64,000 nt of DNA from Ruminiclostridium papyrosolvens DSM 2782. GTDB lineage: Bacteria > Bacillota > Clostridia > Acetivibrionales > DSM-1351. Under the pieces are notes generated by a model that was not told where the DNA came from, did not search any database, and was given only the letters and a program-made list of their open reading frames with translations. A program made the translations under genes and the position numbers. The stretch lies in NCBI RefSeq assembly GCF_029318685.1, contig NZ_CP119677.1, forward strand, positions 3,897,001 to 3,961,000. The letters run 5' to 3'. Numbering within the stretch: the first letter of the stretch is position 1; each line of letters begins with the position of its first letter. Shown in pieces: positions 39,001-64,000 of the stretch.

Positions 39001-39175
39001 ATGGCATCACACCTCTTTTTTAAAATTTAACGACAGAATATCAGAAATATTGCCAAAATAATTGTGTCTATCCCGAACAGTAGTGGATTTTGACCTGAAC
39101 GGTAACTGGCAGTTGATGAAACATAAAAAGTATAGTAATATGGTTATAAATTTTAACTTAGGAGAGGTGGAATAC

Positions 39176-41202: not shown

Positions 41203-41223
41203 GACTTGCAAGTAGATAAAAAA

Positions 41224-41261
41224 ACAGAGAAGAAAAACGTTATCGTTTTAATCTTCTCTGT
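41224..41261. terminator. Bidirectional terminator between kinase and cysteine desulfurase genes
   Basis: ACAGAGAAGA-AAAACG (41224-41239), a TTAT loop and CGTTTT-aa-TCTTCTCTGT (41244-41261) form a 16-bp stem with two unpaired bases. On the minus strand it is followed by TTTTTTTATC. It closes the sulfur/prenyl operon. Confidence 0.88.
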
Positions 41262-41274
41262 CCTATCTGTTATT

Positions 41275-42420
41275 TTATCCTTTTGGGTAAACTATTCCTT
41301 TTACGGCATTAACAAACGTATCAGCTTGCTCCAAATTATTGAAATAACCCAATGATATTCTAACGGTTCCTTCCGGGTAAGTACCAATGGTTTTATGTGC
41401 CATAGGAGAACAATGCATTCCTGTTCTGCTAAGAATGCCGTATCCCTGTTCTAAAGTAATACCTAGCAAAGAGCTATCCCATCCGTCAATATTAAAGGAT
41501 ATTACAGAAGTTCTTAAACTCAAGTTTTCAGGTCCATACAGTTTTAACTGACCTAAATCCCCTAGTCCTTCAATAATATACTTTACCAAACATTCTTCAT
41601 GTTTTCTTATAGCGTCGATTCCTTCGCTCATTATAAACTTTACTCCCTCAAGGAGACCTGCAATGCCTAAAACATTCATAGTTCCACTTTCATATCTGTA
41701 AGGTAAGAGGGCAGGCTGCTCAACTTCTTCCGAATGACTTCCTGTTCCCCCTCTCCTAAATGGTCTTAAATTGGTATTCCGAGGAATAACAAGACCTCCT
41801 GTTCCTGTTGGTCCAAAAAGACCTTTATGCCCGGGAAAAGCATAGAAATCAGCTCCGATTTCATTGATGTCTACAGGAATTACTCCCACAGCTTGAGCAC
41901 CGTCCACCAAAGAATTTATGCCATTCTCCCTGGCGATAGCACAAATTTCATTAACAGGCTGTATAGTACCGGTTACATTAGAAACATGGTTTATACATAT
42001 TAACTTTGTGTTGTTCTTTATTTGCTTTTTAATGTCAGAAGGTGAGACAAACCCCTCGCTATTACACTGAATATAACTTATCTCAACACTTTTTTTGCGC
42101 ATTTCTTCTAAAGGCCTAACAACTGAATTGTGCTCCATCGTTGTTGTTATTACATGATCTCCCTGATTCAATAAACCGTTAATAACCATATTTAGCGAAT
42201 CAGTTGTGCTAAATGTAAAAACAATTCTATCTTTCTCAGGGCAATTAAAGAGTTTAGAAAGCATTAGTCTGCATTCTTCCAGAGCCTTTGCCGATTCCAC
42301 AGACATTATGTGTGAAGCTCTGCCAGGATTTGCACAACTATTTCGGAAGAACTCATCATTCTTCTTATACACTACTTCCGGCTTTGGCCATGAAGTTGCT
42401 GCATTATCAAAATATATCAT
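41275..42420 (-). CDS. Cysteine desulfurase (class V aminotransferase family)
   Basis: 381 residues. PLP enzyme of the NifS/SufS/Csd group: MIYFDNAATSWPKPEVVY at the start, TTTMEHNSVVRPL, LVDGAQAVGVIPVD (PLP Asp) and the Schiff-base Lys in FPGHKGLFGPTG. The catalytic Cys lies in RTGMHCSPMAHKTIG, in a short loop as in the SufS/CsdB-like group II. It takes sulfur from cysteine as a persulfide. It is the last gene of an operon with an E1-like enzyme and a sulfur-carrier protein, so it probably supplies the sulfur for a thiocarboxylate on that carrier. Confidence 0.93.
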   Translation of the reverse strand: MIYFDNAATSWPKPEVVYKKNDEFFRNSCANPGRASHIMSVESAKALEECRLMLSKLFNCPEKDRIVFTFSTTDSLNMVINGLLNQGDHVITTTMEHNSVVRPLEEMRKKSVEISYIQCNSEGFVSPSDIKKQIKNNTKLICINHVSNVTGTIQPVNEICAIARENGINSLVDGAQAVGVIPVDINEIGADFYAFPGHKGLFGPTGTGGLVIPRNTNLRPFRRGGTGSHSEEVEQPALLPYRYESGTMNVLGIAGLLEGVKFIMSEGIDAIRKHEECLVKYIIEGLGDLGQLKLYGPENLSLRTSVISFNIDGWDSSLLGITLEQGYGILSRTGMHCSPMAHKTIGTYPEGTVRISLGYFNNLEQADTFVNAVKGIVYPKG

Positions 42421-42430
42421 CTGAAACTAC

Positions 42431-43450
42431 CTACATTCCTATGTATTTAGCATATAGCATCCTAGCTACACTTGGTTCGCTTGTGCCCTTAATTACAACC
42501 CGTCCGTCCGGAAATATGACAAATTCATAAGACTCTATTTGTGCACTAATAAAAAAACCGTTATCACTTATCTGAGCTATACTTTTTAAACTCTCCCTTA
42601 CCTGCTCTATTTCCATTGAACTTTTGGGAGCAGAAATTTGCACGGCATTTCTCCCGCATAGACTAGTAACCTGATATGATGAAATCGCATCAAGAAATTC
42701 AAAATTTCGTTTTGAACAACATAAACATTCTTCTCTTTTTTCTATCGTATTTAAAGAGTTAAAACTTCCTGTCCAAACATCAAAAGAAGTCATTTTTCTT
42801 TCCCCGTCATCATTGTTACCAATAAGAATTTTCATGGCTTCTATAGTTTGCAATGATGCAGTAATACTCACCGTTGCTCCTAATATTCCGGCTAAATCAC
42901 AGGTTGGAGTCTTCCCTTGTGCAGGGGGATTAGGAGTTAGGCAACGTAAACAAGGCCCCTCTTGAGGAATTACTGAATAAGCTATTCCCTGACTACCTAT
43001 ACACGCACCGTAAACCCAAGGTATAGAATATTTAACAGCTACATCGTTTATGAGAAAACGCAATTCGAAATTATCGGTTCCATCCATAATCAAATCAACA
43101 TCTTTTGTAAAACTCTCTATATTTGATGATGTTATATCTGAAAAAAATGACTCCAAAACCACTTCTGAATTTATCTTTTTCAGTTTTCTTTTTGCGGCCT
43201 CAACTTTGGGTAGCATCTCTCGCGCATCATCTTCGTCGAATAAAATTTGCCTGTTCAGATTGGACATTTCAACATAGTCTCTATCTACTAACCTTATAAA
43301 TCCTACACCAGCCCTCACTAAATTATTTAATATAACCGTACCGAGAGCTCCTGCACCTAAAACCGCCACTCTTGCGTTTTTCAGCTTTTTTTGCCCTTCT
43401 TTGCCTATGGGAGCAAATAGTTCTTGCCTTGAATATCTACTATTGTCCAT
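42431..43450 (-). CDS. ThiF/MoeB-family E1-like adenylyltransferase
   Basis: 339 residues. ATP site VLGAGALGTVILNNLVRAGV, then RLVDRDYVEMSNLNRQILFD with the conserved Asp, Asn and Arg. DGTDNFELRFLIND and the adenylation-loop TCDLAGILGATVSI (with catalytic Cys) follow. Two zinc Cys-X2-Cys pairs are CLRC and CLCC. Residues about 245-339 form an extra C-terminal domain (QISAPKSSMEIEQV, FVIFPDGRVVIKGT). It should adenylate the C-terminal Gly of the ThiS/MoaD-like protein of this operon and exchange AMP for sulfur delivered by the desulfurase encoded 10 bases downstream. No thiazole- or molybdopterin-synthesis genes adjoin, so the job is probably specific to this cluster. Confidence 0.92.
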   Translation of the reverse strand: MDNSRYSRQELFAPIGKEGQKKLKNARVAVLGAGALGTVILNNLVRAGVGFIRLVDRDYVEMSNLNRQILFDEDDAREMLPKVEAAKRKLKKINSEVVLESFFSDITSSNIESFTKDVDLIMDGTDNFELRFLINDVAVKYSIPWVYGACIGSQGIAYSVIPQEGPCLRCLTPNPPAQGKTPTCDLAGILGATVSITASLQTIEAMKILIGNNDDGERKMTSFDVWTGSFNSLNTIEKREECLCCSKRNFEFLDAISSYQVTSLCGRNAVQISAPKSSMEIEQVRESLKSIAQISDNGFFISAQIESYEFVIFPDGRVVIKGTSEPSVARMLYAKYIGM

Positions 43451-43499
43451 TATAGTTATACAACCTTCCTAATAAACTTCATGAAAATAGAATTATAAA

Positions 43500-44276
43500 T
43501 TATTCTTCTGCTTTCTTTCCTATTAGAACAAAATACTTAATATGGTCCCTTATATCGGTTTTGGCAATCTGAAGTTCTTGATACAATTCCTTCAATGCAC
43601 CTACCCCATATTTCACAAGTAACTTTGATGCTCCCAAAAAGCCTTTTTGAAAACCCATATCTTTGGTTGAATCTTCATAGAACGTATCCATCATATCCAA
43701 CTTTTCTTCTACATGAACAACTTCAAGTCCACATTCCTTGAAAATCTCCACCCATTGCTCCAGGAACATAGGATGAAAACCTTCGAATTCGTAAAATTGT
43801 TTACGCTTTTCTTCCCCGGGTTCTTTCATCCAGTACATATCATGCACCCCTACTTTACCCCCGGGTTTAACTACCCTCGCCATTTCTGATATTACTTTTT
43901 TTACATCAAGTGGTGAAACAGCAGCTTCAGAGAAAGCAGCATCAAAAGTGTTACCTTCAAAAGGCAAACTATGGGCATCAGCCTGTAAAAAATTCAGATT
44001 TTCCGTTAAACCGTTTTTCTGGGCTTTTTCAGTAGCAAATTTCACCATATTGTGAGAATAATCTATTCCAGTTATTTTGCAGCCGTATTTACCGGTAATC
44101 CAATTTGAGGTTTCTCCACTTCCTGATGCAACTTCTAGCAAGTGTTGTTCTTTATTGAAACCCATTAATTCTGAAAATTCCTTTGTCATTTCCAAAGCAC
44201 CGGGATGTAAGCTCTGAATTCCCATTATCCCAACCAAATCATCTAATGTAACTCTCCTCATATTATAATTCTCCAA
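43500..44276 (-). CDS. Class I SAM-dependent methyltransferase
   Basis: 258 residues. SAM-binding motif I is LLEVASGSGETSNWITGKYG (residues about 42-61), followed by ITGIDYSHNMV (acidic strand-2 end), LQADAHSLPFEGNTFD and the post-III GGKVGVHDMYWMKEPGE. It resembles small-molecule (UbiE/erg6-like, Methyltransf_11) methylases. It lies between the ATC-hydrolase-like gene and the E1-like gene in the sulfur/prenyl operon. It may methylate O, C or S of the product; S-methylation would suit the context, but that is inference. Confidence 0.92.
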   Translation of the reverse strand: MENYNMRRVTLDDLVGIMGIQSLHPGALEMTKEFSELMGFNKEQHLLEVASGSGETSNWITGKYGCKITGIDYSHNMVKFATEKAQKNGLTENLNFLQADAHSLPFEGNTFDAAFSEAAVSPLDVKKVISEMARVVKPGGKVGVHDMYWMKEPGEEKRKQFYEFEGFHPMFLEQWVEIFKECGLEVVHVEEKLDMMDTFYEDSTKDMGFQKGFLGASKLLVKYGVGALKELYQELQIAKTDIRDHIKYFVLIGKKAEE

Positions 44277-44282
44277 TTTTCT

Positions 44283-44792
44283 TTATTTTCGTTTTAATTG
44301 ATATTCACAACAGTTGTCTCCTGCTGATATTGTTTTATTTAATGTATATTCTGCCGAAAAACCCAGAGAACTACATACCCCAAGGTCAAGTTTGCACAGA
44401 ACCTTGCATATTCCCTGCGTTTCTCCCATAATCTCAAACATCATACCTAATGGACAGTCTGTAGCAACTATGACTGCTTCGTTTTCATCATGACTAACAA
44501 TTTGCTTTTTTACATGACCTAACGTTGAAAACAATTCGACAAATTTGAGAAAACCATCCATTCCCATTTGTTTAACGTATCCACTGGTAAGAAGCTTATC
44601 GCCCACATATTCACCTATCTCAAAAAGTATTTTTTCAGCGAGCTTCTTACCCTCATCTCCATAATGGGATATCATTGAATTGGAAAATACAAATGCAATA
44701 TATGAACTAAGCATCATTTGATCAGAAAGTTGCTGCTGTAGCTCCTCTTTTGTCAAATCATCAATGGATGAATAATTTGAATTTTCGTCCAT
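44283..44792 (-). CDS. L-2-amino-thiazoline-4-carboxylate hydrolase-like protein
   Basis: 169 residues. The pattern of small cysteine-bearing proteins annotated as ATC hydrolases is present: HYGDEGKKLAEKILFEIGEY, then ATDCPLGMMFEIMGETQGIC, LCKLDLGVCSSLGF and the closing DNCCEYQLKRK. Cys-rich conserved positions (DCP, C-X3-C, NCCEY) are kept. The founding enzyme opens a thiazoline ring, but most homologues have unknown function. It abuts the sulfur-carrier gene (no gap), so it may act on a sulfur-containing heterocycle or carry an intermediate. Family assignment is from memory of the motifs. Confidence 0.6.
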   Translation of the reverse strand: MDENSNYSSIDDLTKEELQQQLSDQMMLSSYIAFVFSNSMISHYGDEGKKLAEKILFEIGEYVGDKLLTSGYVKQMGMDGFLKFVELFSTLGHVKKQIVSHDENEAVIVATDCPLGMMFEIMGETQGICKVLCKLDLGVCSSLGFSAEYTLNKTISAGDNCCEYQLKRK

Positions 44793-45062
44793 TTAACCCC
44801 CTCCTAATAAAGCTAATATTTTTATATCATCATTGTCATTTAAAACGTAATCCGCTCCACCTTTTGCTCTATAGTCACTACTGTTAACAAATATCAGTAT
44901 ATGTGAACTAATCTCATTCTCTTCGGTAAATACATTCCTGCGGAACACTTCGCTTTCTTGGGATAACAGATTTAACATTTCAGAAATTGTAATATTTGAG
45001 TTCTCAATTTGTCTTGTCCCTATGTCACAAATGGCTTTTGATACTTCCACATTTACCATCAT
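44793..45062 (-). CDS. ThiS/MoaD-like sulfur-carrier protein
   Basis: 89 residues. It starts at ATG 45062, overlapping the stop of a prenyl synthase gene, with AAGGGGG before it. The N-terminus VNVEVSKAICDIG and the middle HILIFVNSSDYRAKGGADYV fit a beta-grasp fold, and it ends NDDIKILALLGGG. The hydrophobic beta strand followed by C-terminal Gly-Gly is the mark of ThiS/MoaD carriers; three Gly close the chain here. The E1-like enzyme of the same operon would activate the C-terminal Gly and turn it into a thiocarboxylate. In natural-product pathways such carriers deliver sulfur to thiocarboxylic acids, thioamides or thiosugars. Confidence 0.87.
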   Translation of the reverse strand: MMVNVEVSKAICDIGTRQIENSNITISEMLNLLSQESEVFRRNVFTEENEISSHILIFVNSSDYRAKGGADYVLNDNDDIKILALLGGG

Positions 45063-46090
45063 ACTACCCCCTTAAGCAGTAAGTTAGTTTTTATCATGTT
45101 CTCAATATCCATAAATATAGCAAGTATTTTTAACATTACCTGTTTTTGTCCGGGATGGCTTATGCTTAATGCCAGCACTTTTGCCTGCTTAATCAGATTT
45201 TGTATAACCTGCTGAGCGTCATCCTTTATGTTTCTGTCTTCAATTTCCTGAATAATATCCTCAAGCTTATTGTATTCATCTGCGCCGATTTTCTGGTAAA
45301 GGATGCAAGTAAAAAGGTTAGCACATTGCATTTTAATGTCGGATGCTTGTGCTCTACCTAATTCCTTCTCAAATCCGAATACATCTAAAAAGTCATCCAG
45401 AATATGTGCCAGCAGTCCCAGTATCTCAGATAATTTAAAGACTTCATCGGGGAACTCGGAGCCGGTTACAATATAAGGTAATTCAATAATTCCCCTCATC
45501 AATACACCTACCTGGTCTCTAACAATTCTTTCATATGTATCGTAATCATTTACCTTTCCTCTGCTTGCTACATCTCTTGATTTACCTTCTGAAATCAAAT
45601 ATGCGTAATTGAATGCACCCATCAGTTTCAAGCTTTTATCCTTTGGAAGATCCGTACTCTTTATAAAGTCAAGAAATAGCTCAACTGCCTTGAAGATTAA
45701 TATATTTGAAGCCAGAAGCGTATAGTCCCTTCCGAAAACTAAATATGTACATTTTCTGCTTTCTCTTACCTCTGACTCATCTATCAAGTCATCCTGTATA
45801 TGTGCAGCATTATACAGAAAATCAAAAGCAAAGCAAACCTTGTTAAAATTATTTACAAAATCAATGTTATCTGTAAGACTTTTCAGCATATATGAAGAAA
45901 AAATTACAGGCCTTATCTTTACCGGTTCATAACACGCATACCTTGCTGCCCTGATTGCAGGATTTAAGCAGTCAGAATTGGGATTTGAAAGACAATCTTC
46001 ACAATTCTTACTACACTTAAATATGTCAAACAATTCCTTCTTCAATGCCTTTTTGTATATTTTCCATTCTTCAATTAAAGTAATGTCCAA
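45059..46090 (-). CDS. Polyprenyl diphosphate synthase with N-terminal Cys cluster
   Basis: 343 residues. Both prenyl-synthase Asp-rich motifs are present: NAAHIQDDLIDESEVRESRK (FARM, DDxxD) and AHILDDFLDVFG (SARM, DDxxD), with KSRDVASRG between. An unusual N-terminal segment, FKCSKNCEDCLSNPNSDC (residues 23-40), has a C-X3-C-X2-C-X7-C arrangement that could bind zinc or an iron-sulfur cluster. A second synthase lies 15 bases upstream; the two may form a heteromer or act in turn. Chain length cannot be predicted with confidence. The gene overlaps the sulfur-carrier gene by ATGA. Confidence 0.88.
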   Translation of the reverse strand: MDITLIEEWKIYKKALKKELFDIFKCSKNCEDCLSNPNSDCLNPAIRAARYACYEPVKIRPVIFSSYMLKSLTDNIDFVNNFNKVCFAFDFLYNAAHIQDDLIDESEVRESRKCTYLVFGRDYTLLASNILIFKAVELFLDFIKSTDLPKDKSLKLMGAFNYAYLISEGKSRDVASRGKVNDYDTYERIVRDQVGVLMRGIIELPYIVTGSEFPDEVFKLSEILGLLAHILDDFLDVFGFEKELGRAQASDIKMQCANLFTCILYQKIGADEYNKLEDIIQEIEDRNIKDDAQQVIQNLIKQAKVLALSISHPGQKQVMLKILAIFMDIENMIKTNLLLKGVV

Positions 46091-46105
46091 ACAACTCTTC
46101 CCCCT

Positions 46106-47113
46106 TTATTTATTTCTGTATAATGCAAAATTTAAAAGCCCATCAAGTATTTGTATTTCATAACTGTATGGTAATTCAGCAAGTTTGTCCTTAGCCCTTG
46201 ATATATACTTCATTGCTATACCTTCTGCATAATCCTCCACATCGTATGATTGTAGTATTTTCTTAAGACAATCTATATTCCCTGGCTCAACATGTTGTTT
46301 TTCAAACAAGTTCTTAATGAAATCCTTTTCGGAGGTACTTGCTTTTTGAAGTACATATATAATCGGAAGGGTAATTTTGCCCCCTTCAACATCACTTACC
46401 AGCGATTTTTCAACTACTTTCTCATCTCCGAAAAAGCTCAACATATCATCCTTAATCTGAAATGCCATACCTAAACACTTACCCATCTCAGAAATACTAT
46501 GAATATTCTCCTCAGAGGTATCAGCTATAATCCCCCCAATAGTACAGACTTTTTCAAAGAATACCGCTGTCTTTTTGTAAATCATATCCAAATAATCATC
46601 TTCGGCCAAACTAAATTTTCTCTCGAAATTCAAGTCTAAGAATTGCCCTTCACATATCACCATTCCAAGTTCCAAGATTTCTTTTAACAATCTGGATCTT
46701 TTGGCGTTATCAAACTCGTGATTAATAAAATTGATATTGAAACTCTCAAAGGCTTTTAAGAAAAGATAATCTGCAGATAGTATCGCTGTATCCAATCCAT
46801 ATTTTATATGTACAGTATCAGTTCCACGGCGTTTTTCTGATTTGTCCATAATATCATCTTGAACCAGCGAAAAAGTATGTAATATTTCATGGCCAGCTGC
46901 TATATCTATTGCATTGCTTGGCTCTCCACCCGTTGCTCCACACGCCAAGAGTAACATCAAAGCCCTTAAATGTTTTCCTTTACCCATGTAGTGTCTGGCC
47001 GCACTGTACAGAGGTAAGTCGCTATCACAAATAGATTCCGATATCCTATTCTTAACTCTTAGTACCATACTCTGGTAATACTTTTCATCTCTTTCACATA
47101 AAATATTAATCAT
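46106..47113 (-). CDS. Polyprenyl diphosphate synthase (GGPPS/HepPPS-like)
   Basis: 335 residues. Allylic-substrate motif LVQDDIMDKSEKRRGTDTVH (FARM DDxxD with downstream Arg-Arg) is intact, as are KGKHLRALML and QIKDDMLSFFGDEKV. In the second Asp-rich motif the last position is Ser (DDMLS rather than DDxxD). EGGKITLPIIYV is conserved. It should join isopentenyl units into a C15-C40 chain. It follows the SMR gene by 50 bases and precedes the Cys-cluster synthase. The Ser change may alter activity or make this subunit partly structural. Confidence 0.9.
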   Translation of the reverse strand: MINILCERDEKYYQSMVLRVKNRISESICDSDLPLYSAARHYMGKGKHLRALMLLLACGATGGEPSNAIDIAAGHEILHTFSLVQDDIMDKSEKRRGTDTVHIKYGLDTAILSADYLFLKAFESFNINFINHEFDNAKRSRLLKEILELGMVICEGQFLDLNFERKFSLAEDDYLDMIYKKTAVFFEKVCTIGGIIADTSEENIHSISEMGKCLGMAFQIKDDMLSFFGDEKVVEKSLVSDVEGGKITLPIIYVLQKASTSEKDFIKNLFEKQHVEPGNIDCLKKILQSYDVEDYAEGIAMKYISRAKDKLAELPYSYEIQILDGLLNFALYRNK

Positions 47114-47163
47114 TTATACCTCACAACAATTTTCTATAGCATAAAGCCTTTATTTAGTACTCA

Positions 47164-47484
47164 CTATTCAACTCCTGATAACTTTAAACCGATAATCCCA
47201 GCCATAATTAATAGAATGGAAACAACTTTCATTAAAGAAATTGACTCTTTTAGAAAAACTACACCAATAACAGAAATTAATGTTATACCAACCCCTGACC
47301 AAATTGCATATGCAACTGAGGTATCAATATTTTTTATTGCTAAAGACAAAACACCTAAACTTGCTAAATAAAACACGATCATCAATATACTAAAACCAAG
47401 TTTGGTGAATCCCTCAGAAAGTTTCATAAATACAGTTCCAGATACCTCCAAGATAATTGCAGCAAATAAATATACCCACTTCAT
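47164..47484 (-). CDS. Small multidrug resistance (SMR/EmrE-type) efflux protein
   Basis: 106 residues with four hydrophobic helices. Glu13 in AAIILEVSGTVFMKLSEGFT is the essential membrane Glu of EmrE/QacC, and SVAYAIWSGVGITLISVIG (Trp-Ser-Gly) is typical of the drug-exporting branch rather than the guanidinium (Gdx/SugE) branch. It exchanges protons for lipophilic cations. It is the first gene of the sulfur/prenyl operon behind a consensus promoter, so it may export the product or protect the producer. The ATG follows GAGGAGGTG. Confidence 0.92.
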   Translation of the reverse strand: MKWVYLFAAIILEVSGTVFMKLSEGFTKLGFSILMIVFYLASLGVLSLAIKNIDTSVAYAIWSGVGITLISVIGVVFLKESISLMKVVSILLIMAGIIGLKLSGVE

Positions 47485-47750
47485 TTTGTCACCTCCTCTA
47501 TCCTTAAGTTATCTTTGAGTTTCATAGCAGTACTTATTATGTTTTACAAAAACAACCAAATCCTTTAACAGTGAAATTGACCATTTCAATGTTTGAATAC
47601 AAGAATCAGTGCTTAAATAACTTGCATTAACAGAAAAGAAAATGTCGTTTATAAATCGTCTGAATTCGACAAGAAGCCGCATGATTTATGGGCATTTTAT
47701 TTATACTTTATTATAGCTCTTCCACTTTAATCTATTTTTTACACATAATA

Positions 47751-47779
47751 ATTATAGAGCAGTTTGAATAATTTGTCAA
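47751..47779 (-). promoter_or_regulatory. Consensus sigma-A promoter of sulfur/prenyl operon
   Basis: On the minus strand TTGACA (47779-47774), a 17-base spacer and TATAAT (47756-47751) match the consensus at every position. Transcription should begin near 47744, about 260 bases before the SMR start, and run through the cysteine desulfurase gene. Confidence 0.82.
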
Positions 47780-47883
47780 ATTTTACTTATTTTAAAAAAA
47801 TTGTCGAATTAGTGATTATCAAGTCATTTTTAGATAAAATAAATAATAAGTACACTAAATAATATTTGATAAAACCTTTATAA

Positions 47884-47936
47884 AAAATACTCCTTTCTGA
47901 CTAATACTTAAATTCTTAACCATAAAGGAGTATTTT
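47884..47936 (-). terminator. Terminator of the PKS transcript
   Basis: AAAATACTCCTTT (47884-47896) pairs with all 13 bases of AAAGGAGTATTTT (47924-47936); the loop is 27 bases. On the minus strand the stem is followed by a TATTTTTTA stretch. It lies 34 bases after the PKS stop codon. Confidence 0.85.
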
Positions 47937-47969
47937 CTAGTTTTTGTATCGCTACTTACATTTCACCGT

Positions 47970-56900: not shown

Positions 56901-59891
56901 AATTTTTTTATTCAAATTGTCAGAATAAAGGGACGGCACAATTGTATTATGTTTCATTTGTAAAATAACTTTAATCAAGCCCGATACTGCCGCTGCAGAT
57001 TCCAGATGACCAATATTGGATTTTACAGAGCCTAATAAATACTTATCAGAATAATTTTCCTTAATATTTAATCCTTTTGACAAGCCTACAATTTCTATGG
57101 GGTCTCCAAGACTGGTTCCTGTACCATGTGCTTCAATGTATGTAATATCAGTGGGTTTGATGTTAGCCTTTTCTATTGTTTTTCTTATAAGTTCACCTTG
57201 TGCATTTGGACTTGGAACAGAGTAACCTGTTGCCTTTCCACCGTGGTTAACACCTGTGGCTAAAATAACAGCCTCAACATGATCTCCGTCACTTATAGCT
57301 TTTGATAAAGGCTTTAATAATAATGCACCAACACCTTCTCCCGGCACATATCCATCGCCCCCTTCACCAAAGCTCCTGCACTTTCCTTCGGAAGAAAGGT
57401 AGTTTTTGGTTGACAGTACTTTATATTTTGCAGGATGAACAGAAAGATTTACTCCTCCTGCAAATGCCAGAGTTGATTCGCCGCTTCGAATACTCTCACA
57501 CGCTAAATGGATAGCTGTACCGGAAGAAGAACACATGGTATCCACAGCCATGCTTGGCCCTTTCAAATCTAAGAAATAGGACACCCTATTTGCTATTGAT
57601 GAAAAAGAGGAAACCGGTGATAAGGTATAATCCTCAACTTTTGTTTCATAAAATTGATAATGCCCCCAAGCAATACCTACATAGACACCAACTGTTTCTT
57701 CTTTCAGCTTATTGCGTGTATATCCTGCATTTTCCATGGTGTTCCATACAGTTTCAAGGAATATTCTTTCCTGAGGGTCTATCATAGTGGCTTCTATTGG
57801 TGAGTAGTTGAAAAATTCTGCATCAAAATACTCCGGCTTATTCAAAAAACCGCCCCATTTGCAATTGGTCATGCCCGGTCTGTTATCCTGTTGGGAATAA
57901 AAATTATTATAATCCCAACGTTCCTTTGGAACTTCAATAATACAGTCCATACCCTCGGAAAGCACCTTCCAGTATTCTTCCACATTGTCCGCACCGGGGA
58001 ATTTACCATCAAAACCTATGATTGCAATTGGTTCGTTCTCATAATCAAATTTAGTTTGACTATTACTTTTTAAAACCACAACTTCTTTCTCTTTAGCTGC
58101 TGAAATATCAGCTTGGACTTTTATTTCAGGCTTTGCAGCTGTTTCCTTGGTATTAAATAATTGTGCGTATTCTTTCTCTACGAATTCTTCCAACTGATCC
58201 AGTCTTTCGTATTCAAAAAATAATGTTTTGGGCAATGAACCAAGTTTTTCTTCCATTTTTGCAATAATGTTTATCATTTTGATGGAATCTATTCCAAGAT
58301 TCTCAAAATACTCGTAATCATCAATATCCGTAATCTGGTGTTTTGTAATTGAAGCTATAGATTCTTTCAAGAATAAATTGATTTTTTCTTTATTCATAAA
58401 ACTGCTACCCCTTTCATTACCCTCTTGTTTTAATCCTAGTAAATCAATGATTTCTCGCTTTTTCCCATAAAAAGTTATAAATGTTCCTGACTTTCCGCTA
58501 TTTAAAACTGTCTCAAATACTTTTATTCCCTGTTCCCGAGATAAAACATCGAAGCCTTGTTTTTGCATATTGTTCTTAACAAGTTTTGAGGCATTCATTC
58601 CTTTGCTTTCCCATAAAGGCCATGCAATACTGATAAGGCGTACATTTAAGTTCTTTTGCTCAGAAACATAATTATTTAAAAAACTATTCCCATATGCATA
58701 ATCACATTGTCCTACGGTTCCTACATATGCGGCAATTGATGAAAAGTAAAGTATGTAATCACTCCTGCACTCTTTTGCTATCAACTCTACCTGCTTAATG
58801 GAATTTACCTTGGGATTAATCACATAATCAAAGTCCTGTTTTTCCTTTTTTATTATCATGGAATCCTTTGAGGTTGCCGCACAATGAATGATTCCATTTA
58901 TTTTCCCCTGTTCAGCTATTTGGGATATAAATTTTTTTGTTGACTCTTCAGAGGTAATATCGCATGAATGGAATACCAGCTTTTCAGCGTCTCCACCCTT
59001 TTTCCTTATTTCAGCTTTAGCCTCTTCAATCAAGTCGTAATTACAATTTCTGCCGCAAACTATAACCTTTGCATTATATTCGGTAATCAGGTGACTGGCC
59101 AGAAGGGTTCCCAGTCCTCCAAGTCCCCCTATAATTACATAGTTTCCTTCCCATACGGTGAATTTAGCATTATCATCAATCAGTTCTGTCAGTTCCAATT
59201 TTTTTATATATCTTTTTTCGCTGACATATTTTACTTCAAGATTTTTACTTGTTCGCTCGTCATTTATTAGCTCTAAACAAAGCTCATTGATTGATGACAA
59301 CTCTATACTGTGGCAGCAAATTCTTGAGTTCTCATTGGACAGTACTCTGAAAAATGCACTTGTTGCTGCGCAGGTGGCATTCCATACGGGATTCTTTTTC
59401 ATATAAAAGAATAATATGTCCCAACCCTTTCCTCTGAGCACATGCTTACTCATATGAAAGAAGAAATCCACCGAAAAGGTTGATACGTTTTCATCCAAAA
59501 TCTTATTTTCACATAAACAAAAACAATTTATAGCTAATCGTATTTCTATATGATTAGAAGTTAACCAATCGTATAACTTCATATATGAACTTTCATCCGA
59601 CAAATTCAACTCTAATTCATATGGATTAATTTGTCTGAACTCATTGCCCGGATGAATTTGTATTATATTTTCTCCTAAACTTTTAAATACTCTTTCCTTT
59701 GTAAAATCTTTATGGCAGAAAACTAAAGCACCCTCTTGCTGCTCTGTATTTGTTCCGGTTTTATGCAGCTCCTGTTCTTCCCAAGTTTCAATGCAGTATA
59801 TGCTTTCTGACGCATCTTCTATTTGTGAGGAATAAAAATTATCAGCATTATTCAGTTTTTCAACAATTTCAAAAAGTCTATCTTTGCTCAT
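47970..59891 (-). CDS. Trans-AT-type modular polyketide synthase (3973 aa)
   Basis: Domain order with key residues: KR (about 245-470; GGLGGLG, Ser and Tyr in SSIAAYVG/CDYAYGN), ACP (Ser536), KS1 (Cys787, HGTGT, NIGHLES), DH (His1257 in HVVNGKVLMP, Asp1421), ACP (Ser1557), KS2 (Cys1813), DH (His2289, Asp2460), KR (about 2765-2995; GGLKGIG, DYAYAN), ACP (Ser3067), KS3 (Cys3333, but QGTCT with Gln3468 in place of the catalytic His), an ACP-like insert without its Ser (Asn3675), a KS-flanking linker, ACP (Ser3887) and a C-terminal helical docking tail. There is no AT, ER, C-methylation or thioesterase domain, so malonyl units must come from a free AT encoded elsewhere. It starts with a KR that completes the DH-ended module of the upstream protein, 18 bases away. 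ATG follows ATGGAGA. Confidence 0.93.
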   Translation of the reverse strand: MSKDRLFEIVEKLNNADNFYSSQIEDASESIYCIETWEEQELHKTGTNTEQQEGALVFCHKDFTKERVFKSLGENIIQIHPGNEFRQINPYELELNLSDESSYMKLYDWLTSNHIEIRLAINCFCLCENKILDENVSTFSVDFFFHMSKHVLRGKGWDILFFYMKKNPVWNATCAATSAFFRVLSNENSRICCHSIELSSINELCLELINDERTSKNLEVKYVSEKRYIKKLELTELIDDNAKFTVWEGNYVIIGGLGGLGTLLASHLITEYNAKVIVCGRNCNYDLIEEAKAEIRKKGGDAEKLVFHSCDITSEESTKKFISQIAEQGKINGIIHCAATSKDSMIIKKEKQDFDYVINPKVNSIKQVELIAKECRSDYILYFSSIAAYVGTVGQCDYAYGNSFLNNYVSEQKNLNVRLISIAWPLWESKGMNASKLVKNNMQKQGFDVLSREQGIKVFETVLNSGKSGTFITFYGKKREIIDLLGLKQEGNERGSSFMNKEKINLFLKESIASITKHQITDIDDYEYFENLGIDSIKMINIIAKMEEKLGSLPKTLFFEYERLDQLEEFVEKEYAQLFNTKETAAKPEIKVQADISAAKEKEVVVLKSNSQTKFDYENEPIAIIGFDGKFPGADNVEEYWKVLSEGMDCIIEVPKERWDYNNFYSQQDNRPGMTNCKWGGFLNKPEYFDAEFFNYSPIEATMIDPQERIFLETVWNTMENAGYTRNKLKEETVGVYVGIAWGHYQFYETKVEDYTLSPVSSFSSIANRVSYFLDLKGPSMAVDTMCSSSGTAIHLACESIRSGESTLAFAGGVNLSVHPAKYKVLSTKNYLSSEGKCRSFGEGGDGYVPGEGVGALLLKPLSKAISDGDHVEAVILATGVNHGGKATGYSVPSPNAQGELIRKTIEKANIKPTDITYIEAHGTGTSLGDPIEIVGLSKGLNIKENYSDKYLLGSVKSNIGHLESAAAVSGLIKVILQMKHNTIVPSLYSDNLNKKIDFDTLPFEVVQQLQPWELKEEHKNGMIEFFSAVSSFGAGGSNSFTILGKLAQETDKRAFVINEQLIVISALSEKALRENICSLKEYVQQQEDTSSGTFVDICYTLQTGREAMTYRAAFLANSIDELSNELNCYIEGKASEKCYSGFVEKNVAKGNLCMETATELHVKNHDMKKLAQEWVSGKYVDWEKLYTKEVFKPKKIALPTYSFQKERFWILDYGNEAGTKINVDLIHPMIDVNNSTINRQIYKKRLSGHEPYLSNHVVNGKVLMPGAGFVELSRAAGQLALAGIGTVKNMSNIVFRRPLVVEQPSDIVVECYPKKGGLLFEIKDENEKNIVYCTGEVSYLGMQGDYIEEESCLKDEVYDSCIDTNEIYSMLKRAGFSYGEYYQCINKISLVEDTVIAKLEIEEDIANENSFYELKPSLVDSALQSASILLKSEEDGNKFIPSKIENIIIYGSMTNTCTAVVKTVSCSKSGYVFNIKIYDAQGNICVQICNYTIETYSKPENINKAAVRRVESSNEIDRELKSKVAEFVKHSISKEIGVDTNTLKESDDFEKYGIDSVITMRITDRLNQVFKTLPATLLFEHKLIGSLIDFLFSDFHDIAVEHFGEDSNQLNTQNEEAEKTDYLEADQKDADTLYNSKYSHSNEDIAIIGIAGRYPQSDNLDIFWDNLVHGKDCIEEVPLERWDYRPLYSADKNEKGKISSKWGGFINGAEEFDADFFGIVPIQAAIMDPQERIYLQSAWSCIEDAGYTVKALENYKVGVYTGEMWGCYQKVGVEETLKGNVMSLSSSFASTSNKVSYIMNLHGPSMTVDTMCSSSLTAIHLACKAINDGSIDMAIAGGVNLSLHPDKYISLSQGKFLSTNGRCKSFGEGGDGYVPGEGVGTILLKKVSQAEKDKDHIYGVIKATSINHGGRSNAYFVPNVIEQKNLIVEALKNADISPRTISTVEAHGTGTALGDPIEVEGFNKAYRLYTQDKQYCAIGSVKSNIGHLESAAGIAALTKVLLEMQHKKLVPSIHSEILNSKIDFAGSPFYVQHEYEEWKKPIINENGQLVEYPRRAAISAFGAGGTNVHIVLEENKQKEDLRNIQAADRIFVFSAKNKERLEELLQKFVQFLKQQEFSGQAEENSFMYDLESNLLMGRQFFKCRIAIVAKKIDEILNRIEAYLAGEEQRNLFIGEMDANSIVDDFFEDEDGKQYLITLMKKKNLQKIAKLWVNNVDFDYNTFVGEQYRKISMPTYCFEKRVIKPPKVKNEIQERRVALHSMVDNNVSKIQNQQFVKQFTGNEFYLKDHVIKGRSILPAAAFLEMLRASGTFSVHQGVVSQITKVVWLRPLMLDGSNAADAYINLIPQGESVKCEIETINQLGVHLLHCTANLELVKYDPKWRADDKLDLNYYKEICTVNVDGSDFYKEFEKTDFVYGKRLQFIDRILVSEASKCAITELHDTNELFEKENYTLHPAILDSGIQSVAALINTYNRSYLPHSVEKVEILDSLDNVKYVLIHDMSVQSDTISFDLEFVSEDGKVLLKFVGLTVKEQKVAEKEDVIQYFTTIVEETAKLPINNEKPKFVILDNTHELYDSIKQLGLDAVLVRPGNAKNKISQTEYEICSCEEQDYKWLFQNAVNNSSSTCIIYNLNRDLSMDFDINYAEEFFVFVKAVVSSGLRSNIKLFHVFSGDIQSANKLSVNPMYLACAGLLKTAVMEMPKLVCKNIAFDKSIVRDSRKLAGYLRDELALGTENVEEIYYSFEDKRHIRALKELTGTNPQQSTLKVNGVYYIIGGLKGIGLKFAEYLATTYKANLIISGRTELSAENKKHIENLQRVCESVLYLQADVNVYQDMKNSVELIRNTYGRLDGIVYSAGIKQDELIINKTPETFTRIIETKTLGIQNTCKAVGEEPVDFIITFSSLAGLMGNMGQADYAYANNYLDAYATVEGFNGKNMLSINWPYWLDGGMRLKDSEIEGMKRRNNMVPLQTKDGLQAFEFAISNLSSVHQLFVLASDNVTKSQEVKTVKEDSSKSKEPSGKKSVETKGVSASESAISYLKNVISEETQIEANRIKNNEAFDAYGLDSVMIMNITVSMEKEFGELPKTLLYENHNINELNEYLQTNYTAEYNKLFGSSSVIQAEYMELEAAEEREDESTLEYTTEREKIIFSNYIKEVISDANTVCNEDIAVIGLITKAPEADNIDEYWQNILQNKNCITEVPEERWDYKPYFSEVKGEIGKTYCKYGGFMKDIDKFDPLFFNIAPSNAAFIEPQERILLQETWHLFENAGYAVSNLKDRDVGVFVGAMWQQYQMLLMNGPAQGMIPSLFSNLANRLSSYYDLSGPSIALDTMCSGSLTALHLAINSIRNGECSSAIVAGVNTSIHPSKYINLSQGGLLSTDSKCKPFGKGADGYIPAEGLGLMLIKPLSQAIKDKDNIHIVIKSNEMAHSGKGGGFMVPNPKAQAQVIEKAIRKAKVPIQSINYIEAQGTCTEIGDAVEVKGMSTAFGNFTKEKQVCSVGSAKYHIGHTEAASGILAIAKITMQMKNHLIPGILNDDEINEKLPLADSPFYIQQQAGVWEPYSQNGEKYPLTAGLNGFGGGGSYVHFILQEYVEPEREVKKIRKGHNAFNLSGKNKNALKQMIWNFEEYIKSLFSNNNGKGNILEDVIKIICTKTGVSNSILSEASILAELNLSNKNYVEVLNEINKVFNLNMEYEDFINLVTVKDIVDNIPCNSIKEDGIKLEQIAYSLQQGRESMAERVVFVAESAEELLAAIRQSSSRENVNGVYYGFEDKSTCDSELNSLISAWLEYKDVNWEALYKSATPKKVVLPEYPFAKERYWLPKEIIMNCKNEDSAGDSSLNQSPATRSVQLSDERGKLADIIASTLGISADLLDYDTSFSTYGLDSYLGLKITQDITELYNCPMEISILEEYNTVNKLYEYIAANNKKSEADSVVNENMENSELTWLLLKQLENGEIDVDEVMKIEKEVQEK

Positions 59892-59909
59892 TTGAATTCT
59901 CCATTCTGA

Positions 59910-62900
59910 TTATTTGTTGTTGATAATTTTTTGAACTACATATTCTTGGATTACAACATTTATATTTCCGTATAAATCCATAATAAAAATATCGTAGCTG
60001 TCCGATTTACTGCTTATTTTTTTTCTCATTGCAAGGATAAACCCTCTTTCCATAGGCCTGTTAACAATAGTGAGCTTTTCCATATAAAAGGGTACTCTGA
60101 TTTGTCCGCTGTTAAATCCGGCTGATATATTGCCTACAACACTTTGGAATGCCGCATCCAATATTCGGGGATTCAGTGCATATTCCTCGGATTTATCATC
60201 ATTCTCTATCACATATTGAACAACTGAGTAATCATTGGCACACCACATTGCATTTATTGTTTGGAATGTTTCTCCAAACATCATATTAGCGGCTTCAAAC
60301 TGTTTATATACATAATCTCTGCTAAAAGGTTTTTCACATGAGTCAATGAGGGCAGCTATATCCGGCTCTTTAAATATTGCATCATTGTTCAGTACAGTAC
60401 CTTTAGCAAGTAATTTATTTGAAGTTATACTTACGGTACTAATACTATCCTTTTTATCTATTGATACGGCTAGCTCAATTGGCTTTGAGCCGGCTTCAAA
60501 ATTACCTAACCAAAACATATCCTGTATGCAGTTAAACTGTTTTTCTTCTGTGGTACAAGCAGCCTTCATAATTATTTCCGAATAAACCGCACCGGGCAGT
60601 ATCATCTTTCCGTCTACTATATGATCTCTGAGAAAAGCATCCTTAGCTGAAAATGCTATAGTTTGCTGCGTTCCAGAAGCCTCTTGGCTTATATCTGCCT
60701 CAGTTGATGATAAAGAATAATATTCAGGAATCCAATATCTCTCTTTCTTAAAGGGATATGTCGGTGCATGTATTTTCCTTGGTTTTTCCAGAGAATAAAG
60801 CTGATTCCAATCAACATCAATCCCATAACACCACATCTGCGTTAAATCCTTTATTTGCCCGGTTTCAATCATGTGATTAGTCAATTCTGACTCAGAGCCT
60901 TTTTCACATTTCTCCTTACACCAAGAAGAATATTTAGCAATATTCTCACATAGAATATACCTTTCATCTGCCTGCTCAGTAATAACTTTATCAATCATTT
61001 CCACTAACTCCGACAGAGATGTTATATTAATAGCACAACGGCAATTAAACCTGTCCCGTCCCACTTGGAAGGTATAACACAAGCGTTGAAGCAGAACATT
61101 ATCTTGCGTATCTACCCCTGTTCTCACTTTGCCGATATTATCTGAAACTAATTTGAGATAAACTTTTAATCTGTCCGCATTATGAGCTGATATAGTGAAT
61201 ATAAAATTATCTTTACTTTTTGACTCCAATAACTCAGTCGTCGGATTTTCATGTTCTTCAAGGACAACATGGGCATTTACTCCGCCTATGCCAAAAGCAC
61301 TCACACCTGCTCTTCTTGGCAAGCATTCACCGTCATCTGCATTATAGTATGGAGCATATTCTGTCAGTTCACGATTAACATAAAATGGAGAGTCCTTTAA
61401 GTCTATATAAGGATTCAGTGTTTTGAAATTTATCGTTGGGGCTATCTTTTTATTTTGCAGTGACTTGACAGCCTTAATAACACTGGCAATTCCTGATGCT
61501 GCTTCTAAATGTCCGATATTAGTCTTAACAGAGCTTAATGCACAAGCCTTTGTCTTTACAATATGTTCACTGCCGCTTGATGCTTCAGCAAATGCCTTCT
61601 TTAGTCCATCTATTTCAATGGGGTCACCTAATTTGGTTCCGGTACCATGTGCTTCTATATATGTAACTGTACTCATACTAATTCCGGCATTATCATAAGC
61701 TTTCTTAATTACACTTGCCTGCGCTTCTGCATTGGGTACCGTAAGCCCTGTAGATTTGCCCCCATGTTGTACTGCGCTTCCGCATATAGTTGCATAGATG
61801 CTGTCTCCATCTGCTAATGCATCCTGCAAGCGCTTTATGAGGATAACACCTACTCCTTCACCACGAGCATACCCGTCTGCAGCTTCATCAAAGGTTTTAC
61901 ATTTCCCTGTTGGTGATAAAGCCTTGGAAAGACATTCATACACATATGTATTGGGCGATAAAATCAAATTAACGCCCCCGGCAAATGCCATTTTACTTTC
62001 ACCATTTTTCAGTGTTTCAATTGCTCTGTGAATTGCAAGTAAGGAGCTGGAGCAGGCCGAATCACAAGGTTCGCTTTTACCTGTAGTTTCCAGTACAAAA
62101 GAAATCCTGTTTGTAACCATGGAATGGGTCAGGACTGTTGGTATTTTTCTCTGTACAAGCAGTTCCCCATAATCAGCATTTGATATTCCTATAAAAATCG
62201 ACGTATCTGTTCCCTTTAAATCTTTTGAGCTATAGCCTGCATCCTCCATGGCTTTCCAGGTATGTTCCAATACTAATCTTTGCTGTGGGTCCATTATAGC
62301 TGCGTCGAGTGGTGATATTTTAAAGAATTTTGCATCGAAGCAATCTACATTTTCAATAAAGCCTCCTGAGTGAGTATAAATGTTATATGCTCCATATTCG
62401 CTGTCGCCGTCATACTCTCTCCAGTCCCATCTGTCAGAAGGAATATCTGTAATTAAATCCCTTCCCTGACTTATGTTATCCCAGAATTCTTCAATGTCTG
62501 AACTTCCCGGGAAAGCACCACTCATACCGATAATGGCATACTTGTCCGAATATTCCTTAACCTGATAATTACTTTCAGCATTTGTAAAAACCCTTGTAAA
62601 ATCATAATCAGGATATGCCTGACTACTCACGCTGCTATGGCAGGTGGTTTTATAAGCCTCTTTTACATGAGTATACTTTTCCAGAATATGTTCAACAATG
62701 TTGTTGACCGTATTTCTTTCGAAGAAAAGCACCGGGTTTGTATCTATATTCAATTTCTCATTTATAGCATTGGACAGCTCTGTAAATGTAATGGAATCAA
62801 ACCCGTATTCTAACAAACTTGTATCCGGATCAATTTTTTTTCTCAATTTTAAAGTCTGAGCACATACATTTATTATTGTTTCAGTTATACTATTTTCTTG

Positions 62901-64000
62901 AATAAATTCAATATTTTCTTGGTCGTCACTTTTGTTTTCAATTGAACACACATTTTCAGGCAAGGCTTTTGTGCTGACATCACCATTTACAGCCAAGATA
63001 GTGTAATTGCTAATCCGAGCCAACATTTTGCAAGCTTCACTATAATATTCTACTGTGTACTTCCACTCGGAAGGGTTTTGGGTTTTCCCTGCTTTCGCAA
63101 TAACATGAACATATTTTATAGCTGTCCCTTTTTTAAAAAATTCTATGTTTTCAGTTACAAAGGGCATATAAATCGTCTCAGCATTTGCTCCCATTTTATA
63201 TGCAAGTGCAACAACACTTTGAAATCCCGCATCCAGTAAGGTTGGATGGTAATTAAAATCTTTTCTTGTTGCGTCTAAAACATCGACTATACCTGCTTCG
63301 GCAAATGCCTCTTTATCTCTGAAAAAGAAGGCTTTTATTCCTTTGAATCTATAACCAAAACAAGAATTCAGCCGTTCCAAATGGTTGTAGTATTCCTCTG
63401 CCTCGTGTTTTCCGCCAGTCATGCTGCTAATACAATCCGCAACCTTCAACTGCTTGTCCGGAAATCCTGTTTTCTTACCTAATACAATATTGCACTGAGC
63501 ATAAACAATTTCACATGGCACATCGCTGAATACTTGTGCAGAAACTGTTTCACGCTGCAGCATAAAACGAACCTTTAAAACTCTTTTTTCTGCTCTTACA
63601 ACAAAGGGTCTCATAAGTACCAAGTTTTTAATACCAATTAAATTATGACCTTTACTTGAGGCCATAATGCCTTGATAAATCATTTCTATGTATGCCACTG
63701 CGGGTAAAATTCCAAGGTGGTCTTTAATAAAAAATTCTTCCCCTGTAAACAGTTTTGAAAAACAAACATTGCCTAAAGTTGATATATTTGCATCAATCAG
63801 ACTGGAAATTTTCCCTGCATTATCTTGGATACTTACAATATTTTCTGTTTTATCTGTAATCCAGTAGCGTTCTTTCTCAAACTCATAACAAGGTAAATCA
63901 ACTTTTTTGAACTGACTATTTTCCCCGTATAATTCATTCCAATTAATGTAAGCTCCGATAGTCCATAAATAAGCCAGTTTCTTAATGTCTTTCTCTTGAT
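59910..64000 (-). CDS. Trans-AT-type modular polyketide synthase, C-terminal part (cut by window edge)
   Basis: The frame is open from the right edge to the stop at 59910, about 1363 residues; the start is outside. Order: KS-flanking linker (LPCYEFEKERYWI), DH (catalytic His codon 63717-63719; Asp in LLDAGFQS) with a shortened motif KDHLGILPAV, ACP (Ser codon 62793-62795, GFDSITF), KS (active Cys codon 62052-62054 in DSACSSS, HGTGT, NIGHLEAA), linker, and DH (His codon 60621-60623 in DHIVDGKMILP, Asp in ILDAAFQ). It ends right after this DH with no ACP, so the module is completed by the KR-ACP start of the next protein. No AT is present. Confidence 0.93.
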   Translation of the reverse strand, partial: QEKDIKKLAYLWTIGAYINWNELYGENSQFKKVDLPCYEFEKERYWITDKTENIVSIQDNAGKISSLIDANISTLGNVCFSKLFTGEEFFIKDHLGILPAVAYIEMIYQGIMASSKGHNLIGIKNLVLMRPFVVRAEKRVLKVRFMLQRETVSAQVFSDVPCEIVYAQCNIVLGKKTGFPDKQLKVADCISSMTGGKHEAEEYYNHLERLNSCFGYRFKGIKAFFFRDKEAFAEAGIVDVLDATRKDFNYHPTLLDAGFQSVVALAYKMGANAETIYMPFVTENIEFFKKGTAIKYVHVIAKAGKTQNPSEWKYTVEYYSEACKMLARISNYTILAVNGDVSTKALPENVCSIENKSDDQENIEFIQENSITETIINVCAQTLKLRKKIDPDTSLLEYGFDSITFTELSNAINEKLNIDTNPVLFFERNTVNNIVEHILEKYTHVKEAYKTTCHSSVSSQAYPDYDFTRVFTNAESNYQVKEYSDKYAIIGMSGAFPGSSDIEEFWDNISQGRDLITDIPSDRWDWREYDGDSEYGAYNIYTHSGGFIENVDCFDAKFFKISPLDAAIMDPQQRLVLEHTWKAMEDAGYSSKDLKGTDTSIFIGISNADYGELLVQRKIPTVLTHSMVTNRISFVLETTGKSEPCDSACSSSLLAIHRAIETLKNGESKMAFAGGVNLILSPNTYVYECLSKALSPTGKCKTFDEAADGYARGEGVGVILIKRLQDALADGDSIYATICGSAVQHGGKSTGLTVPNAEAQASVIKKAYDNAGISMSTVTYIEAHGTGTKLGDPIEIDGLKKAFAEASSGSEHIVKTKACALSSVKTNIGHLEAASGIASVIKAVKSLQNKKIAPTINFKTLNPYIDLKDSPFYVNRELTEYAPYYNADDGECLPRRAGVSAFGIGGVNAHVVLEEHENPTTELLESKSKDNFIFTISAHNADRLKVYLKLVSDNIGKVRTGVDTQDNVLLQRLCYTFQVGRDRFNCRCAINITSLSELVEMIDKVITEQADERYILCENIAKYSSWCKEKCEKGSESELTNHMIETGQIKDLTQMWCYGIDVDWNQLYSLEKPRKIHAPTYPFKKERYWIPEYYSLSSTEADISQEASGTQQTIAFSAKDAFLRDHIVDGKMILPGAVYSEIIMKAACTTEEKQFNCIQDMFWLGNFEAGSKPIELAVSIDKKDSISTVSITSNKLLAKGTVLNNDAIFKEPDIAALIDSCEKPFSRDYVYKQFEAANMMFGETFQTINAMWCANDYSVVQYVIENDDKSEEYALNPRILDAAFQSVVGNISAGFNSGQIRVPFYMEKLTIVNRPMERGFILAMRKKISSKSDSYDIFIMDLYGNINVVIQEYVVQKIINNK

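Follow-up and report, generated by a model that had tools for sequence, protein, structure and literature searches.

Among the described systems closest to the locus reported here are the thioacid cassettes of thioplatensimycin, PDTC, and thioquinolobactin, in which a carrier-protein thiocarboxylate, an E1 enzyme, and a sulfur source lead to a sulfur-containing natural product (PMC6006322, PMC1779556). We analyzed a stretch of 64,000 nucleotides of Ruminiclostridium papyrosolvens DSM 2782 (the window), part of a one-contig genome of 5,027,861 bases, and found eight tightly packed genes on the minus strand (47484 down to 41275), downstream of polyketide synthase (PKS) genes, in which a sulfur relay lies next to isoprenoid enzymes. 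The predicted proteins support a dedicated thiocarboxylate-type relay beside these enzymes, with thiocarboxylate formation being predicted. The reading that we tentatively favor, placing it a little below an even chance, is that the eight genes form a self-contained operon that would make and export a small sulfur-bearing isoprenoid, separate from the polyketide. All genes named in the original prediction were found at their places, and the gene set of its “seven-gene operon” is present, although the count becomes eight once the SMR exporter is included.

The sulfur relay begins with a Urm1/MoaD/ThiS-like sulfur carrier of 89 aa (44793..45062, minus strand, as for all operon genes) with the C-terminus LLGGG. 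It scores above the cut-offs of PF09138 (37.6 bits) and PF02597 (27.1 bits) and under those of the NCBIfam models; its best-scoring families are Urm1, MoaD, and SAMP. The E1-like adenylyltransferase of the MoeB/ThiF family (42431..43450) has the GxGxxG, NLNRQ, and two CxxC motifs, with the NCBIfam subfamily and equivalog models under their cut-offs. The cysteine desulfurase (41275..42420) belongs to the EF2568 family (TIGR01977, 472.8 bits with a cut-off of 377), and its pyridoxal phosphate lysine (GHKG) and loop cysteine (GMHC) are shared by the six desulfurases aligned with it. At the level of predicted proteins, the relay is complete, with every checked motif of carrier, E1, and desulfurase intact. 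No thiamine or molybdopterin genes were found among the eight operon genes, and the genome keeps its thiamine genes, which encode ThiS, ThiF, ThiG, and a radical SAM protein of the BATS type, about 146 kb away, in agreement with the earlier claim that all three relay parts occur without such genes. The genome has one other ThiS-family gene, in the thiamine set with its own ThiF, one further ThiF-family place, and two further PF00348-like genes found elsewhere with the second isoprenoid enzyme of the operon as query. Because of these PF00348-like genes and the separate thiamine ThiS/ThiF, the relay and prenyl parts of the operon are extra to the housekeeping copies.

The E1 was used as a query across genome contigs, and the best 80 of 108 relatives' loci were analyzed. 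An EF2568-type desulfurase adjoins the E1 in eight of these 80 loci (four from Pelosinus) and lies about 5 kb away in one more; the adjacent pair is therefore a recurring module. A small frame ending in GG was found within 4 kb of the E1 in 28/80 loci, of which 23 looked by eye like ThiS/MoaD carriers and the rest like chance frames. The carrier, the PF14196 protein described below, and the second isoprenoid enzyme had no match in any of the best 80 E1 loci at E 1e-4, and the operon was found in none of them.

The isoprenoid part consists of two PF00348 proteins. PPS1 (46106..47113) looks like a short-chain-type polyprenyl diphosphate synthase; its nearest models, IdsA and geranylgeranyl diphosphate (GGPP) synthase, remain under cut-off, and the closest solved structure is the GGPP synthase 1wy0. 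PPS2 (45059..46090) is a divergent member of the family (81.7 bits), which keeps the motifs DDLID and DDFLD and has an N-terminal CxxxCxxCx7C. We aligned both proteins with 28 synthases, namely the 24 best matches retrieved with PPS2 and four encoded beside PF14196 genes. PPS2 retains both DDxxD motifs and two Arg, while it carries Tyr for His (His in 28/28 relatives), Glu for the second Arg (27/28), Gln for Lys (28/28), Val for Thr (28/28), and Cys for the last Lys (23/28). In the numbering of E. coli farnesyl diphosphate synthase, the altered positions presumably include H98 and R117 in the isopentenyl diphosphate (IPP) site, along with K202 and K258 in the allylic one. PPS2 has thus lost five residues for substrate binding, each of which 23 or more of the 28 relatives share (up to 28/28), so that chain elongation by this protein is unlikely. 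Of the two polyprenyl synthases originally predicted, PPS1 is probably a synthase and PPS2 probably a relative with lost substrate-binding residues. As a separate observation, the CxxxCxxC motif and fourth Cys near the N-terminus of PPS2, which has no radical-SAM domain match, may be a metal site.

Three further proteins complete the operon. The SMR-family exporter (47164..47484; PF00893, 105.7 bits) is EbrB/EmrE-like by NCBIfam models, under their curated cut-offs, and the S-adenosylmethionine (SAM)-dependent methyltransferase (43500..44276) has a TTG start and a phosphoethanolamine N-methyltransferase as its best PDB match. The PF14196 (“ATC hydrolase” family) protein (44283..44792) scores 42.7 bits, with a cut-off of 28.1, and has the cysteines C113, C133, and C162, conserved in 39/39, 37/39, and 39/39 family members, respectively. 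The Pfam score and the three cysteines bear out the “ATC-hydrolase-like” assignment, but “hydrolase” is a family label for a putative activity. A low-confidence model of this protein resembles the V4R/Bet3 ligand-binding fold; together with a published comparison, it points to a V4R/H-NOX/Bet3 (TRAPPC3) type of fold, tentatively the nearest fold group.

The surroundings of the PF14196 family were surveyed at 58 places in 41/291 genomes; 19 regions in 17 genomes, our own included and mostly with short proteins, were read, as was the region of one weak match from the class sample. In one genome, the PF14196 gene lies near genes for a cysteine desulfurase, a TusA-domain protein, and an AIRS/SelD-like protein (G625, L188:5690-10270); a second genome of the same genus has the same gene row (G718, L189) and counts with it as one case. 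This row gives a hint of a role for the family in the handling of sulfur or selenium. In another genome (G230), an E1 gene lies about 1 kb from the PF14196 gene. The sulfur genes near PF14196 genes in these genomes speak for the favored reading. With the seven operon proteins other than the exporter as tblastn queries, prenyl synthases were matched in four PF14196 regions; the same operon was considered there and rejected, as these were synthases of one family in surroundings that looked housekeeping-like by eye. The genome's other PF14196 protein (227 aa, L169:9022-9705) is encoded beside a very long frame that looks NRPS-like by eye, about 24 kb from a gene for a free-standing acyltransferase (AT; L186).

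The eight genes are probably a transcription unit of their own, as judged from sequence signals on both sides. The last PKS gene is followed by a probable intrinsic terminator, a hairpin with a T run (47880..47945, minus strand) (dG -20.3, z -5.27; as stable in 0/200 shuffles), which a simple terminator scan did not list because its loop is longer than the scan allows. In front of the operon lies a sigma-70-type promoter-like site, TTGACA-17-TATAAT (47751..47779, minus strand), with a 12/12 match. When the 485-bp gap between PKS and operon was shuffled 20,000 times with dinucleotides preserved, 20 shuffles held such a site, and there are three 12/12 sites on both strands of the window. The weaker promoter matches in the region were not above chance (24 found vs 28.6 expected). 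A second hairpin with a T run, also a probable terminator, lies behind the desulfurase gene (minus strand, stretch 41205..41290 folded; dG -24.7, z -5.76). The carrier gene overlaps the PPS2 gene by 4 bases and abuts the PF14196 gene; purine-rich sequences resembling ribosome-binding sites were seen by eye before several operon genes, that before the methyltransferase being weak. Rfam gave nothing at gathering score over 38000-64000. The hairpin after the PKS, the 12/12 promoter-like site, and the hairpin behind the last gene argue for a separate unit, consistent with the two-operon reading of the original prediction, and the operon therefore need not belong to the PKS pathway.

We propose the following steps for the favored sulfur-bearing isoprenoid. 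The desulfurase would draw sulfur from cysteine, and the E1 would adenylate the C-terminal glycine of the Urm1-like carrier, which would then be converted to the thiocarboxylate. PPS1 would form an allylic prenyl diphosphate, probably C15-C20. PPS2, which derives from a prenyl synthase and no longer has much of the second-substrate site, may ionize the allylic diphosphate through its two aspartate motifs and either pass the ionized prenyl to a different acceptor or cyclize it. A hydrophobic or sulfur intermediate could be held by the PF14196 protein, which perhaps has a ligand-binding fold with cysteines; the methyltransferase would methylate this intermediate, and the SMR protein would export the product. 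Sulfur and prenyl are expected to meet in one product because a complete relay and dedicated isoprenoid enzymes occur in one tight operon; we infer each chemical step, the prenyl chain length, and this meeting in one molecule. In a more specific variant, which we regard as quite unlikely, the carrier thiocarboxylate itself is the prenyl acceptor: PPS2 would transfer a prenyl cation to the carrier sulfur to make a carrier-S-prenyl thioester, and the cysteine-bearing PF14196 protein would cleave this thioester or take it over to give free prenyl or terpenyl thiols, which are then methylated and exported. If true, sulfur would reach isoprenoids by a new route, and ubiquitin-like carriers would have a new use.

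The wide occurrence of the operon apart from any PKS, which the original prediction had named as counter-evidence, was not observed in the sampled genomes, where no second copy of the operon was found. The PF14196 protein had no match in 57 other genomes of the order at E 0.001 (42/58 genomes of this set reach a completeness of 90% or more with contamination of 5% or less), nor in 59 other relatives, largely the same genomes, at E 0.01. Weak matches were present in 5/390 others of the class sample (best 24.5 bits) and 3/397 of the phylum sample (best 25.5). The PPS2 query gave only matches to ordinary synthases, in 56/59 other relatives (best 48.4 bits) and, at E 1e-12, in 10/397 others of the phylum sample (best 53.4 bits). 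Plasmids and viral contigs gave no matches. The samples are a small part of the known species, and the carrier and methyltransferase were not among the whole-genome queries.

The PKS genes upstream form a cluster that continues beyond the window. The gene next to the operon (47970..59891, minus strand) encodes a trans-AT PKS of 3973 aa with the order KR-ACP-KS-DH-ACP-KS-DH-KR-ACP-KS-ACP, in which no AT and no TE was seen. The C-terminal part of the next PKS gene follows (59910..64000, minus strand; 2692 aa in full), which extends upstream to G000:C1:3964988, and further PKS genes lie at 3.966-3.994 Mb of the same contig. Beyond them come ABC transporter genes, a free AT, a metallo-beta-lactamase-family gene, and an FAD oxidoreductase, then a C-A-PCP-KS-hydrolase gene, a second AT, and acetyl-CoA carboxylase subunits, so that the PKS cluster reaches about 4,013,355. 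By Pfam, the PKS proteins have ketosynthase, dehydratase, ketoreductase, and carrier domains, and no AT domain was found in any of the eight PKS genes of the cluster, all of which were scanned. As free-standing ATs are encoded upstream of the window (L004:15998-18274 and L008:8203-9234), the description as AT-less modular, trans-AT PKSs is correct. In the last ketosynthase of the 3973-aa protein, Gln replaces the first active-site His (EAHGT motif); loss of this residue is a trait of non-elongating ketosynthases. For the PKS/NRPS protein, inspection of the adenylation domain by eye gave no clear substrate specificity. Other observations concern the PKS genes and ATs of this genome: a ParA/MinD-type ATPase gene (AAA_31) stands within the PKS gene row (L003:4100-4864), the free AT near the second PF14196 gene (G000:C1 2,584,972-2,587,200) is 40% identical, and at G000:C1 4.55-4.62 Mb seven AT matches fall in frames of great length (3260-6938 aa) that probably make up a cis-AT PKS cluster.

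Both the operon and the PKS are flanked by a kinase gene on one side and a MerR-family gene on the other, which are 92 kb apart here vs 7.7 kb in one close relative (G006). That relative retains the kinase at the matching site, with operon and PKS missing there. The stretch taken from a second relative (G008) did not show the kinase, and the left elongation-factor-like gene is 6.8 kb from the MerR-family gene there; a third (G002) keeps the left gene, but its right flank did not appear in the stretch examined. Our genome, G006, and G008 each have different contents between the flanks, which marks the spot as variable. Operon and PKS were likely gained jointly, and the link between them consists of adjacency, the shared 92-kb interval, and shared absence from relatives, not of recurrence elsewhere.

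This link bears on the proposal that operon and trans-AT PKS make one product, with the relay and prenyl enzymes tailoring the polyketide into a sulfur-containing, prenylated, or prenyl-tailed compound. Besides sharing the interval, operon and PKS lie on the same strand, 485 bp apart, and have similar GC content (operon 0.359, PKS gene 0.362). Searches of 10 other genomes of the genus gave no match to the PF14196 gene and none close to identity for the free AT (full-length identities of 38 and 42% in two, partial ones of at most 50%), in contrast to a flanking gene with 71-92% identity in 6/10. However, a terminator-like hairpin and a strong promoter-like site separate the two, the PKS cluster is itself equipped with ATs, acetyl-CoA carboxylase subunits, an ABC transporter, and a hydrolase domain by which the product could be released, and none of its domains plainly needs sulfur or prenyl. 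In addition, the three genomes that were compared closely differ at this site, and the two may have been gained separately. We therefore regard a shared pathway as unlikely, albeit worth serious consideration; of the originally predicted polyketide, the adjacency and shared interval stand, whereas the operon's own promoter-like site and bounding hairpins speak against it.

Three other explanations leave the PKS aside. PPS2 could be the non-elongating partner of PPS1 in a heterodimer that makes a prenyl lipid or quinone-like product, while the relay serves an unrelated step. Two adjacent PF00348 genes would fit this, as would the CxxxC motif and altered active site of PPS2, since Cys motifs occur in plant small subunits of heterodimeric prenyl synthases; non-catalytic partner subunits are usually without aspartate motifs, however, whereas PPS2 keeps both, and we consider the heterodimer distinctly improbable. 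That Urm1, MoaD, and SAMP are the best families of the carrier would also suit a relay that thiolates tRNA or conjugates to proteins in a Urm1-like manner, the prenyl enzymes then prenylating the thiolated product. This is very improbable, given that the Pfam results of the eight proteins include no tRNA thiolase or known tRNA geranyltransferase, that the operon has an exporter, and that the PF14196 gene is absent from close relatives. Finally, a LytTR response regulator and a GHKL histidine kinase (39062..41202, plus strand) are convergent with the operon and end 72 bp from its end, which raises the idea that PPS2 prenylates a peptide signal in the manner of ComQ, sensed by this two-component system. 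We find it scarcely credible: no obvious precursor was seen by eye among the short frames of the operon leader, the kinase is kept in G006 at the site without the operon, and the sulfur relay plays no part in such a scheme.

Several points weigh against the sulfur-bearing isoprenoid that we favor. No enzyme of the operon is a proven sulfur transferase to prenyl or another small acceptor, and the three relay genes could serve an unrelated acceptor. PPS2 was compared by sequence only, its structure model having a mean pLDDT of 51, and its first IPP-binding lysine (K66) depends on the alignment, being Lys in one and Val in the HMMER alignment. PPS1 has Ser at the last Asp of motif 2, where 28/28 others and PPS2 have Asp, while it keeps all other checked substrate-binding positions and aspartate residues. 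The other PF14196 regions that were read contain no such operon, and since the operon was found once in the searched genomes, conservation cannot support the reading.

Two further genes of the window were recorded. One encodes an EF-G-like GTPase fused to a C-terminal YacP-like NYN domain (PF05991; 25052-27700, minus strand), which joins a translation factor to a nuclease-type domain; among 10 other genomes of the genus, it is full-length with 71-92% identity in six, shorter with 46-47% in three, and without a match in one. The other encodes a 2168-aa surface protein (32112-38618, minus strand) with SLH domains and at least seven Listeria-Bacteroides repeats, with a GC content of 0.47 vs 0.36 for the operon.

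The pairing of relay and isoprenoid enzymes suggests an unknown sulfur-containing isoprenoid product, and even if the eight genes served to tailor the polyketide, the result, a prenylated polyketide with sulfur, would be unusual. In practical terms, the operon is a delimited set of eight genes whose size would permit heterologous expression. It resembles the thioacid cassettes in having a small-carrier protein thiocarboxylate system, an E1, and a sulfur source. In contrast, those cassettes use an acyl-CoA synthetase and a CoA transferase, and they often include a JAB protease and an E1 fused to a rhodanese; no acyl-CoA synthetase, type III CoA transferase, JAB protease, or rhodanese-fused E1 was found among the eight operon proteins, and the operon's carrier ends in a bare GGG. 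The paulomycin cluster is similar in combining an E1 (ThiF-like Pau30) with a cysteine desulfurase (Pau31), but has no ThiS homolog according to its authors, and the sulfur is proposed to end as an isothiocyanate; the available part of this account makes no mention of prenyl synthases (PMC4425429). In Pelosinus and others, E1 and EF2568-type desulfurase genes are adjacent as in the operon, while a cysteine synthase-like gene accompanies the pair in Pelosinus (L039, by eye).

For PPS2, a parallel exists in termites, where terpene synthases arose from isoprenyl diphosphate synthases with the first aspartate motif kept and most other motifs changed; the GGPP synthase-like proteins, including terpene synthases, retain just the first aspartate motif and one other motif (PMC13143122). 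The termite enzymes differ in being animal proteins without a sulfur relay, and PPS2 keeps both aspartate motifs. The open-licence literature yielded nothing relevant on a sulfur-isoprenoid pathway of this kind. Relay-type thiocarboxylate systems are already known, and what appears new is their pairing with isoprenoid enzymes: cofactors and some natural products, few in number, are known to receive their sulfur from protein thiocarboxylates, and the operon described here would extend this chemistry to isoprenoids.

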